Shown in pieces: positions 60,523-63,075 of a DNA stretch of 64,000 nt. This stretch comes from Verrucomicrobiales bacterium (lineage in GTDB: Bacteria; Verrucomicrobiota; Verrucomicrobiia; Verrucomicrobiales; V1-33): positions 62,001 to 126,000 of the forward strand of contig JAQGPJ010000041.1 in assembly GCA_028293125.1 (NCBI GenBank), given 5' to 3'. The notes beneath the pieces are model-generated. The model ran no database searches. It worked only from the letters and a program-made list of their open reading frames with translations, and was not told the origin of the DNA. How positions within the stretch are numbered: the stretch's first letter is position 1; the number at the start of each line of letters is the position of its first letter. The translations under genes were made by a program, and so were the position numbers.

Positions 60523-60593
60523 GCGGTCATCGTTCAACAGCAGGACGACGGTCTTCCAAACCGGCTATGCCGGTGCAGTTCCGGCTGACCAAC
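60523..60593 (+). tRNA. tRNA-like gene, anticodon TCC (Gly), altered elbow
   Basis: A four-arm fit: anticodon loop CTTCCAA on a 4-bp stem, T-arm stem GCCGG/CCGGC with loop TGCAGTT, and D-arm GTTCAACAGCAGGAC. The acceptor pairs only over five bases and CCA is not encoded. The D-arm closely matches those of the leucine-anticodon genes downstream. T-loop position 55 is G and the D-loop lacks GG. It may be a degenerate or divergent tRNA. Confidence 0.45.
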
Positions 60594-60731
60594 CCTTTTC
60601 CCCCATGATCAGGAGGATGCCCCGGCCAGCGGGCTGTAGACCCGCCGTCATCTCAAAAAGAGGCCGGAAGTGACCAGTGGCGCACTACCACCATCCTTCA
60701 CCATTTTTCAGCCCTTCCCCAATCCATCCAC

Positions 60732-60804
60732 TCCCCAGTGAGGTAACGCAGCCTGCCAGTCTTTGAAACTGGAAGTCATGGTTCAAGTCCATGCCGGGGA
60801 GCCA
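60732..60804 (+). tRNA. tRNA-Gln (anticodon TTG)
   Basis: Anticodon arm CCAGT-CTTTGAA-ACTGG, T-arm CATGG-TTCAAGT-CCATG with a canonical T-loop, and an acceptor with one A-C mismatch at the sixth pair, G73 and encoded CCA. The D-loop TAACGCAG has no GG. 73 bases long. Confidence 0.82.
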
Positions 60805-60838
60805 TTTTTTCCACCCGCCATCCCTTTGTTTTCCCCTC

Positions 60839-61441
60839 ATGATTTCCCTGCCACCCGCCCTCATCACCACCCCGCGCCTGATCATCCGGCGGCGGGACCC
60901 GTCCGATGCCGCTCTTTTCAAGGACGCGGTGGATTCCAGTCTGGAGCACCTGCGCCAATGGATGCCCTGGGCTCATGATGAGCCGATACCGCTGGAGGCT
61001 CTGCGGGAGCGCATCGCTGGTTTCGCCCTCAATTTTGAGGAAGGCCGGGAATTTGTTTACGGCATCCTGTCCAAGGATGGATCAGAGGCTCTCGGCTGCC
61101 TGGGCTTGCATCTCCGCAATGAGGATACGGACCGCGAAATCGGCTACTGGCTGCGCGTCTCCGCCACCGGCCAAGGATTTATCACCGAAGCCGCCGCAGC
61201 CGTGACCACCGCCGCCTTTGCCACATGGCCGGATGTCCAAACCGTCACCATCGTCTGCGATCCGGCCAATGCCCGCAGCGCCGCTGTCCCCGCCCGCCTG
61301 GGGTATTCCTGTCTGGGAAACCGCCCTTCCAAGGAACCTACCCCGGCCCGCTCCGAAGACCAAGTCTGGCGGATCACACGGGAGGGCTGGCATTCCTCCA
61401 CCGGCAACGGCAGGGCAGCCGTCAGCCAAATTCAGCCATAG
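60839..61441 (+). CDS. GNAT-family acetyltransferase, RimJ/RimL-like
   Basis: 200 residues from the ATG at 60839 (MISLPPALITTPRLIIRRRD), the usual opening of RimJ/RimL-type N-acetyltransferases. Further family text: HLRQWMPWAHDEPIPLEALR, YGILSKDGSEALGCLGLH, REIGYWLRVSATGQGFITEA (acetyl-CoA site) and CDPANARSAAVPARLGYSCL. Such enzymes acetylate protein N-termini or small-molecule amines; some GNATs (TacT, AtaT) act on aminoacyl-tRNA, but those are smaller and usually paired with an antitoxin, which is absent here. It lies inside the tRNA array, 34 bases after the Gln tRNA, and may be cotranscribed with it. Confidence 0.88.
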   Translation: MISLPPALITTPRLIIRRRDPSDAALFKDAVDSSLEHLRQWMPWAHDEPIPLEALRERIAGFALNFEEGREFVYGILSKDGSEALGCLGLHLRNEDTDREIGYWLRVSATGQGFITEAAAAVTTAAFATWPDVQTVTIVCDPANARSAAVPARLGYSCLGNRPSKEPTPARSEDQVWRITREGWHSSTGNGRAAVSQIQP

Positions 61442-61493
61442 AGCGCCTGACCCTCACGGCAGGGCATGGCTTGCCGTCAGTCAATCCATTTAT

Positions 61494-61569
61494 GGAGTCC
61501 ATAGTGTAACAGTAAGCACTCGGCCTTGTGAACGCCGCGGAACCGGGGCAGAACCGGTTGGACTCCCCA
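61494..61569 (+). tRNA. tRNA-His-like gene (anticodon GTG), altered T-loop
   Basis: The histidine-specific G at -1 opposite C73 is present, the acceptor GAGTCCA/TGGACTC pairs over all seven positions, and CCA is encoded. Anticodon loop TTGTGAA is on a stem with one C-C mismatch; the T-arm stem ACCGG/CCGGT carries loop GGCAGAA in place of TTC-type, and D-loop TAACAGTAAG lacks GG. Confidence 0.75.
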
Positions 61570-61588
61570 ATTTCACCTCATTGTTTAA

Positions 61589-61625
61589 CCCGTGCGCGAT
61601 CAAGCAGCGCATTATCGCGCACGGG
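61589..61625. other. 12-bp perfect hairpin between tRNA genes
   Basis: CCCGTGCGCGAT (61589-61600) pairs perfectly with ATCGCGCACGGG (61614-61625) around a 13-base loop. No T run follows. It may guide processing of the tRNA transcript or be a regulatory RNA structure. The remaining DNA of this 166-bp gap shows no gene. Confidence 0.6.
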
Positions 61626-61735
61626 GATGGAATCAGGAAGCCGTCAGTGGGGCATTTTCCCTGATCCGCCCTGTCCAGGATGGGCCGGTGCCACTGCATT
61701 TTCCGCGGCATCCCCGCCGTGCTTTTTCCATTTTC

Positions 61736-61811
61736 CGGTCTGTAGCTCAATGGGTAGAGCAAGGGACTCATAATCCCTTGGTTGCGGGTTCGAATCCCGC
61801 CGGACCGACCA
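61736..61811 (+). tRNA. tRNA with CAT anticodon (Met or Ile2)
   Basis: A fully canonical 76-base tRNA with acceptor CGGTCTG/CGGACCG, D-loop with GGG, anticodon arm AGGGA-CTCATAA-TCCCT, T-loop TTCGAAT, A73 and encoded CCA. Elongator Met versus lysidine-modified Ile2 cannot be decided by eye; the CTTGG variable region slightly favours Ile2. Confidence 0.92.
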
Positions 61812-61815
61812 TTTT

Positions 61816-61891
61816 CCCTGCGTAGTCCAACAGCAGAGACACCACGCTTAGAACGTGGACAGTGCGGGTGCAAATCCTGCCGCAGGGACCA
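61816..61891 (+). tRNA. tRNA-like gene, anticodon TAG (Leu), short variable region
   Basis: It starts four bases after the CAT tRNA. Acceptor CCCTGCG/CGCAGGG is perfect, anticodon arm CCACG-CTTAGAA-CGTGG, T-arm GCGGG-TGCAAAT-CCTGC, A73 and encoded CCA. The variable region has only five bases, unlike bacterial tRNA-Leu. D-arm GTCCAACAGCAGAGAC lacks GG, and T-loop position 55 is G. Confidence 0.75.
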
Positions 61892-61939
61892 AATCATCAT
61901 CAGTCATCCGGCTTTGTATCAGCCGGAGGCCGACAACTC

Positions 61940-62016
61940 CCTCCCGTAGCCCAATCAGCAGAGGCATCCCGCTTAAGACGGGATAGGTGCAGGTGCGAAT
62001 CCTGCCGGGAGGACCA
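61940..62016 (+). tRNA. tRNA-like gene, anticodon TAA (Leu), short variable region
   Basis: Perfect acceptor CCTCCCG/CGGGAGG, anticodon arm TCCCG-CTTAAGA-CGGGA, T-arm GCAGG-TGCGAAT-CCTGC, A73, encoded CCA, 77 bases. The D-arm GCCCAATCAGCAGAGGC resembles the neighbouring genes and lacks GG. The five-base variable region is atypical for leucine. Confidence 0.77.
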
Positions 62017-62179
62017 TGGAAATCGAACCGGACCAGCGTGCCGGGACCCGGTGCTGACGGGATCATGCCACCTTCATGTGGCATGGGGGCAGGACCTCCA
62101 CTTTCCGCCAAATTTTCCCCGGCGGAGGATTTCGAATTCAAGCGCTGACCTTGCCGGATCGGAAAAACCGATTCATTCA

Positions 62180-62255
62180 GCCCGGATAGCCCAAAAGCAG
62201 AGGCACGGCGTCGAGAGCGCCGCCAGTGCGGGTGCGAGTCCCGCTCCGGGCACCA
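62180..62255 (+). tRNA. tRNA-like gene, anticodon GAG (Leu), C at position 33
   Basis: Perfect acceptor GCCCGGA/TCCGGGC, T-arm GCGGG-TGCGAGT-CCCGC, A73 and encoded CCA. Anticodon arm CGGCG-TCGAGAG-CGCCG pairs perfectly and places GAG at 34-36, but position 33 is C instead of the near-universal T. D-arm GCCCAAAAGCAGAGGC is of the same type as the two preceding genes. Confidence 0.68.
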
Positions 62256-62275
62256 TTTTCAGTTTTCCTTTTTCA

Positions 62276-62346
62276 GGACCGCAAGCTTTGCAGCGAAGCA
62301 GCCGGCTTTTAACCGGCAGAGCACGGGGCGGCACCGTGGCGGTCCA
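62276..62346 (+). tRNA. tRNA-Lys-like gene (anticodon TTT), altered loops, no CCA
   Basis: All four stems pair: acceptor GGACCGC/GCGGTCC, D-stem GCTT/AAGC, anticodon arm GCCGG-CTTTTAA-CCGGC and T-arm CACGG-GGCGGCA-CCGTG. A73 is followed by CTT, so CCA would have to be added. The T-loop has GGC in place of TTC and the 7-base D-loop lacks GG. It starts 20 bases after the GAG gene. Confidence 0.65.
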
Positions 62347-62419: not shown

Positions 62420-62425
62420 AGTTGG

Positions 62426-62455
62426 TGTGTGAAAAAAGAACAGACACCCATGCCG
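62426..62455 (+). repeat. 30-bp inverted repeat, copy B
   Basis: The plus-strand partner of 60409-60438 (28 of 30 positions identical). It ends 41 bases before the HNH endonuclease start codon and could belong to its leader. Confidence 0.9.
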
Positions 62456-62496
62456 GACCTCTTCGGGACGACCGCGCCTTCAACCGTCCCTTCGTT

Positions 62497-63075
62497 ATGA
62501 CCGAAGCCATCCACACCTCCTCCGTGCTCGTGCTGAACCGCCACTGGCAGGCCATCGACGTGAAAACACCCGCGCAGGCCTTCGCCATGATGGCCACGGG
62601 CTCCGCCCAGGCGCTGGATATTTCAGCGAATGCGCTGCTGCCGGTCTCTTGGTCAAACTGGCTGAAGCTGCCGGTGCGGGAGCACGACCGCAGCATCGGG
62701 ACCGTCCACGGCCCGGTGCGCTCGCCAACGGTCCTGGTGCTGGCCCGCTTCGCCAGAATGCCGCGCCGGCGTCTGACCTTTTCGCGCCGGGGGCTCTTCA
62801 TGCGCGATGGCGGGGTCTGCCAGTACAGCGGACGGGCGCTCCAGTTCGATGAGGCGAATATCGACCATGTCATCCCGCGCAGCCGGGGCGGCCCCACCTC
62901 CTGGGAAAATTGTGTGCTGGCCGACAAGCGCGTCAATCACCGCAAGGGTGACCGGACTCCCGAGGAGGCCGGACTGCGCCTCGCACGGCCTCCCCAGCCT
63001 CCCCGTGAAATGCCCGCCGCCGCCCTGATCCGGAACACCCTCGGCATTCAGGACTGGACCATGTTCCTCGGCTGA
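62497..63075 (+). CDS. HNH endonuclease-family protein
   Basis: 192 residues from the ATG at 62497 (MTEAIHTSSVLVLNRHWQAI). The first half has the conserved family opening (SSVLVLNRHWQAIDVKTPAQ), the second the HNH nuclease: RRGLFMRDGGVCQYSG, IDHVIPRSRGGPTSWENCVL and NHRKGDRTPEEAGLRL, with the catalytic histidine in DHVIPRS. The usual second CxxC zinc pair is absent. Stand-alone proteins of this group are widespread in Bacteroidota, Cyanobacteria and PVC bacteria with unknown targets; homing, defence or repair are possible. It closes the tRNA array and is preceded by repeat copy B. Confidence 0.88.
   Translation: MTEAIHTSSVLVLNRHWQAIDVKTPAQAFAMMATGSAQALDISANALLPVSWSNWLKLPVREHDRSIGTVHGPVRSPTVLVLARFARMPRRRLTFSRRGLFMRDGGVCQYSGRALQFDEANIDHVIPRSRGGPTSWENCVLADKRVNHRKGDRTPEEAGLRLARPPQPPREMPAAALIRNTLGIQDWTMFLG

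Follow-up and report, generated by a model that had tools for sequence, protein, structure and literature searches.

A small Verrucomicrobiales tRNA array and its relatives with an A18/G55 elbow in place of G18-psi55

The G18-psi55 contact of the elbow is regarded as almost invariant in tRNA, and the elbow is needed by the ribosome, RNase P, modification enzymes and some toxins. A cluster of tRNA-shaped genes in a Verrucomicrobiales bacterium raises the question of what replaces this contact when its letters are gone, and of whether such genes are specialised tRNAs or slowly decaying copies. The cluster lies in the window analysed here, a stretch of 64,000 nucleotides (positions 62001-126000 of its contig, in a genome of 6.48 Mb), and comprises eight genes at 60523-62346, all on the plus strand. 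Position 55 of the T-loop is G in six of them (Gly, His, three Leu and Lys), and Met alone retains the D-loop GG, which the other seven lack. The sequence, ARAGORN, the Rfam model RF00005 and an in-house scanner bear out this picture exactly as the initial annotation had drawn it. The tRNA genes and the two associated protein genes, in window coordinates, are:

60523..60596, plus strand: tRNA-Gly(UCC)-like gene; RF00005 31.7 bits at 60525-60590; 82% identity to an array Gly (L081)
60732..60804, plus strand: tRNA-Gln(UUG) with an Asn-like body; D-loop AACGCA, T-loop UUCAAGU; CCA encoded
60791..61441, plus strand: GNAT acetyltransferase open reading frame within the array; PF13302, 4.9e-24
61494..61569, plus strand: tRNA-His(GUG) with G-1:C73; scanner score 22; 81% identity to an array His (L060)
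61736..61811, plus strand: tRNA-Met(CAU), the only canonical elbow here (GG / UUC); RF00005 75.4 bits
61816..61891, plus strand: tRNA-Leu(UAG); 87% identity to an array Leu (L062)
61940..62016, plus strand: tRNA-Leu(UAA); 88% identity to an array Leu(UAA) (L060)
62180..62255, plus strand: tRNA-Leu(GAG); 87% identity to an array Leu(GAG) (L063)
62276..62346, plus strand: tRNA-Lys(UUU); 89% identity to an array Lys (L060)
62422..63075, plus strand: HNH endonuclease gene directly 3' of the array; PF13395, 9.4e-10

ARAGORN calls six of the eight tRNA genes and RF00005 calls five, Gly being additional. The in-house scanner scores stems, U33, A14, CCA and similar features and is blind to the T-loop letters and to those at 18 and 19. 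It detects six genes, or seven with C33 allowed, at scores of 21.8-24, and returns no further match of 16 or more in 120 kb of the window on both strands; because a scanner without the elbow letters gives such scores here and nothing else reaches 16, the cluster is not a product of chance. Simple RNA folding, which holds no tertiary pairs, yields a cloverleaf for most members, Gly and Leu(GAG) excepted. Promoter and terminator scans returned nothing clearly exceeding chance. A strong GC-rich hairpin occupies 61589-61632, between His and Met (CCCGTGCGCGAT...ATCGCGCACGGG).

Six of the eight genes combine A18/G55 with a G19-C56 pair. Gly(UCC) has the D-loop AACAGCA (A18 G19) and the T-loop UGCAGUU, together with an acceptor stem of just five paired positions and an altered 3' end, and the gene is probably damaged. 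In His, the D-loop is AACAGUAA (A18 G19), the T-loop is GGCAGAA (G54 G55 C56 G58) and CCA is encoded; Lys has the D-loop UGCAGCG (A18 G19) and the T-loop GGCGGCA (G54 G55 C56 G58) and does not encode CCA. The three Leu genes share a short variable arm, A18 G19 / G55 C56, A73 and CCA, with C33 replacing U33 in Leu(GAG). Gln(UUG) fits neither elbow rule. It carries U1-A72 and G73, and its nearest homologue is an array Asn(GUU) at 84% identity; since its body is of this Asn type, its anticodon seems to have been remoulded. The same D-loop AACGCA with UUC is also present in a Gln of another array (L125).

The initial annotation had proposed that the elbow change is compensatory and had named covariation in homologous arrays as the check, and the homologues answer in its favour. 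Among 1,036 unique array tRNAs from homologous arrays, G18-G19 is found in 306 of the 312 with U55-C56, and A18-G19 in 642 of the 680 with G55-C56. A joint rule, which couples U55 to G18 and G55 to A18 and makes residue 19 complementary to 56, fits 973 of 1,029 tRNAs, compared with 579 (maximum 624) after shuffling of the T-loops; where 56 is not C, 25 of 37 fit against 17.2 when shuffled, and none of these shuffle figures is a strict probability, because many of the counted tRNAs are related. All four types of Watson-Crick pair occur at 19-56, as residue 19 tends to follow a non-C 56 (U19/A56, C19/G56, A19/U56) in both the A18/G55 and the G18/U55 backgrounds. Within the T-loop, positions 54 and 58 covary as U-A, G-G, A-U and C-A/C-C, with a mutual information of 1.05 bits and a shuffle maximum of 0.026. 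The covariation of D-loop and T-loop strongly supports a compensatory change, in which A18·G55 plus G19-C56 would replace the standard contact. Both elbow states are seen in 39 anticodons, and opposite elbows sit on near-identical bodies (2-8 body differences) in Met, Arg(UCG), Arg(UCU), Leu(GAG) and Glu, which points to several separate switches.

A third elbow type appears in Arg(UCG) tRNAs (L061, L067, L103, L132, L133, L159, L163, L172 and L178). Its T-loop reads C54 G55 A56, and its D-loop ends in UAUA, consistent with A18 U19.

Published structures suggest how the altered contact could be built. In the standard elbow, U55 is contacted by residue 18, which inserts between 57 and 58, and residue 19 pairs with 56 (PMC4810234, PMC7912444). 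T-loops of other RNAs can accept an intercalated adenosine, its pairing partner being a G in the second position of the loop (PMC11363276), and those of T-boxes have the consensus AGAGA and UGxRA (PMC7583486). By analogy, the array T-loop UGCRA with A18 would match these adenosine-receptor T-loops, sharing the loop-position-2 G that contacts an intercalated A, as well as UGxRA. The riboswitch and T-box T-loops lie in other RNAs, whereas the array version would replace the tRNA's own elbow contact. It also follows from the sequence that such an elbow cannot receive psi55 or Gm18, and often not m5U54, since it lacks both U55 and G18 and frequently U54 as well.

The bodies of the array tRNAs are well kept. 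Stems within single anticodon families are 93-99.8% paired, against 64-85% when shuffled, absolute values that lean high because the scanner demands mostly paired stems; double-sided changes occur in 13-20 of the 21 pairs. Identity elements outside the scanner's demands are also retained: Ala G3-U70 in 21/21, Cys U73 in 39/39, Asp G73 in 27/27, Trp G73 in 13/13 and Pro C1-G72 in 46/47. Cloverleaf stems and identity elements are thus those of canonical tRNAs, with two departures. Array Gly carries A73 in 41 of 54 cases (for example L061 7148), whereas the host's own Gly tRNAs carry U73 and its GlyRS is of the dimeric type, and 104 of the 680 G55 members have C33 rather than U33. From the identity elements, the encoded CCA and the stem covariation, we infer that array tRNAs would be chargeable and codon-reading; given the two departures, they may not be fully competent in decoding. 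A non-translational or variant-ribosome role, as the initial annotation had also considered, finds no direct support. Array Leu(GAG) and Ile(GAU) often have C33, not the near-universal U33 (L061, L063 and window position 62180).

A Planctomycetota metagenome assembly (G057) provides a case outside the arrays. Among the part of its tRNAs that was read, the only Thr(UGU) found is A18/G55 and all others are canonical, which suggests that this elbow may be usable in ordinary translation. Single A18/G55 tRNAs outside arrays include Thr in Planctomycetota and apparently Asn in other Verrucomicrobiota (L135, L156; G225:C12:824879, G144:C1:1306285).

The host's ordinary tRNAs show none of this change: all 40 housekeeping tRNAs recovered elsewhere in the genome carry GG and UUC. 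Canonical copies of Gly(UCC), Gln(UUG), His, Met, Leu(UAG), Leu(GAG) and Lys(UUU) exist there, and the array isotypes are redundant with chromosomal tRNAs, as in tRNA array units, with the exception of Leu(UAA). A canonical Leu(UAA) is missing from the host assembly and present in congeners. An assembly gap is therefore the likelier cause, and the idea that the array has taken over an essential codon is rejected on the same ground. Loss of TruB is likewise ruled out as the cause of the elbow swap, since the host encodes this enzyme.

Searches of related genomes with the locus DNA uncovered homologous arrays in several families of the order. Together with the window array, 15 related arrays hold 209 tRNAs, and within each locus all of them share a strand. 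Arrays of this kind, with about 8-31 tRNAs, are spread through Verrucomicrobiota and also turn up in some phage contigs and sporadically in other groups. The scanner counts 8-24 tRNAs in the relatives and up to 32 on viral contigs; in this comparison the window array comes out smallest, and its eight genes fall short of the roughly 20 or more of tRNA array units. In Verrucomicrobiota arrays, nearly all members are switched, across nearly all amino acids. A pattern for one altered tRNA gave matches in 45 viral contigs; in a collection spanning 84,980 species it matched 62 stretches. Some matches are not arrays and a few are not tRNAs, and because the pattern picks out a single altered tRNA in each locus and leaves the locus's remaining tRNAs unselected, the proportions are not prevalences. 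The species matches are mostly from Verrucomicrobiota and also from Nostoc, Obscuribacterales, Planctomycetota, Chloroflexi, Myxococcota and more. A strict pattern search matched 5 of 388 genomes of the phylum, a lower bound, as the strict pattern misses known arrays. A stop anticodon tRNA is present in arrays at L248 (9032) and L101; the one in the Nostoc PCC 7524 plasmid is amber (CUA).

The genes beside the arrays recur as well. In the window, the GNAT gene more likely starts at an ATG near 60839 than at the listed 60791, and a GNAT gene of 58% identity also lies inside the array of a congener (G004). The HNH gene, for which an ATG at 62500 is the likelier start, belongs to the setting typical of tRNA array units and adjoins arrays in 13 of 15 near relatives; PADLOC returned generic HNH matches only. 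In many relatives, RtcB, RlaP and TROVE/Ro60 genes adjoin the arrays on the array strand. The window array is accompanied by HNH and GNAT only, with no RtcB beside it; another contig of the host carries RtcB together with a weak match to TROVE, and a divergent RtcB is encoded some 20 kb ahead of the window. Two protein families that are uncharacterised and have no Pfam match also recur beside arrays (L064 11337-12161 and L064 8100-8876).

These observations make it fairly probable that the window locus belongs to a widespread family of redundant tRNA arrays, which reaches its fullest form in Verrucomicrobiota, and that it is a small and partly eroded example of a reserve set built on the A18-G55 elbow. 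The Anabaena array stays silent until translational stress, and TrcR represses it together with rtcB, HNH and GNAT genes (PMC10272220); RtcB operons respond to cleaved tRNAs (PMC7790460). By analogy with these systems, the array would be expressed as reserve tRNAs once ordinary tRNAs are cleaved or blocked, and its products would work beside RtcB, RlaP, Ro60 and the HNH protein. The altered elbow could then help these tRNAs evade nucleases directed at the standard T-loop, or allow them to fold and work without modification; one known toxin makes its cut in the T-loop, separating T from psi (PMC9086364). A bolder version, which we put forward tentatively as a possibility short of an even chance, holds that the arrays may form a second elbow code: a near-complete parallel tRNA set with 18-55 recoded from G-psi to A-G, able to work without elbow modifications, unseen by agents that read the standard T-loop, and induced with an RNA-repair module when ordinary tRNAs are destroyed.

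Neutral drift between equal elbows is a serious rival, unlikely as we judge it. It takes A18/G55 to be equivalent to G18/U55 in redundant tRNAs and to have been reached repeatedly without a benefit of its own. The redundancy of the arrays with housekeeping tRNAs, the mixed arrays that contain both elbow states and the single A18/G55 tRNAs outside arrays in Planctomycetota and other Verrucomicrobiota all fit this view. However, drift would not obviously give a near-total switch in Verrucomicrobiota while the arrays of Nostoc, Mycobacterium and a Variovorax plasmid stay almost wholly canonical, and single-step intermediates are rare, with four GG-only tRNAs carrying G55C56 and one AG-only tRNA carrying U55C56.

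An origin as phage or plasmid anti-defence tRNAs, captured by the chromosome and serving a mobile element rather than the host, also seems improbable. A phage-like character had been suggested at the outset, and in part it stands: phage contigs share the elbow. Contig L107 encodes terminase, head and portal proteins and holds 20 tRNAs, 10 of them with G55, and contig L103 carries a GpA terminase gene, RlaP and 30 G55 tRNAs; tRNA array units have moreover been discussed as anti-defence elements (PMC12803027). The window array itself is flanked by rsmH and a DUF1501 gene, and no phage, plasmid or other mobile genes were found beside it. Nine genomes of family f4 have the array at a constant position close to a znuA-like gene, which points to long vertical residence.

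That the array RNAs act as decoys is quite unlikely. A TROVE/Ro60 gene adjoins many arrays, and competition by YrlA for an anticodon nuclease has been suggested (PMC7790460), yet CCA and identity elements are kept for each amino acid, and a decoy needs neither G3-U70 nor the right discriminator. The lone Thr(UGU) of array type in G057, moreover, seems to serve translation.

Antiparallel GC:GC pairing of the D-loop with the T-loop, prompted by AGCAG and UGC in four window genes and first offered as the form of the new contact, is highly improbable and is excluded as a general contact because the conserved element is A18-G19 and the base after it is free (C 319, U 171, A 128 and G 24 among 642 tRNAs, hence neither C nor U in 152, much like canonical members), while 19 covaries with 56 as a separate pair and A18 follows G55. 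Decay into pseudogenes, the initial annotation's other alternative, is equally improbable: the window Gly and Gln genes are worn and their array is the smallest compared, but identity bases are kept, stem changes are compensatory, loop changes are coupled and many families carry such arrays.

One alternative thus replaces G18-psi55 in more than 600 natural tRNAs, which together cover nearly all amino acids. The arrays amount to a natural mutagenesis of the elbow, through which the dispensability of elbow modification becomes testable, and they link tRNA arrays to RNA repair in Verrucomicrobiota. As tRNA arrays are already known, the new aspect is the wholesale elbow swap, which may have been noticed earlier: we found no account of an A18/G55 elbow in nature or of Verrucomicrobiota arrays in the open-access literature, a scope outside which key suppressor-tRNA and Anabaena work lies, and priority is not established.

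Homologues of the HNH protein, at about 30-40% identity, sit in tRNA arrays of Mycobacterium, Nostoc and a Variovorax plasmid, and this common family places the Verrucomicrobiota arrays with the known ones. In the HNH-bearing plasmid arrays of these three groups, elbows are canonical except in single members; the wholesale elbow change is a special trait of Verrucomicrobiota arrays. The Variovorax plasmid array (L252) has the HNH gene, with a release-factor-like gene and secB nearby. Mycobacterium array units, known from chromosomes, plasmids and phages (PMC5966550, PMC12803027), share dense redundant tRNAs that serve nearly all amino acids, and an HNH gene lies within or next to them. They differ in their canonical elbow, with UUC in 25/25 and 26/27 and a lone exception that is likely a false match, and no RtcB/RlaP/TROVE module is annotated in the mycobacterial stretches read.

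The RtcB/Rsr (Ro60)/Y RNA repair operons (PMC7790460) have in common with many arrays the genes for RtcB, TROVE/Ro60 and RlaP; their RNA partner is a Y RNA, whereas that of the arrays is a set of tRNAs. The Anabaena/Nostoc trn operon would be a comparable reserve of tRNAs, and its TrcR regulon includes HNH, GNAT and rtcB genes; HNH and GNAT also accompany the window array, and RtcB many of the related arrays. Nostoc plasmid arrays resemble the window array in their HNH gene and short-arm Leu tRNAs, and differ in carrying GG/UUC nearly throughout, with one Ile each that reads AAAAGUG / GGCAGUA.
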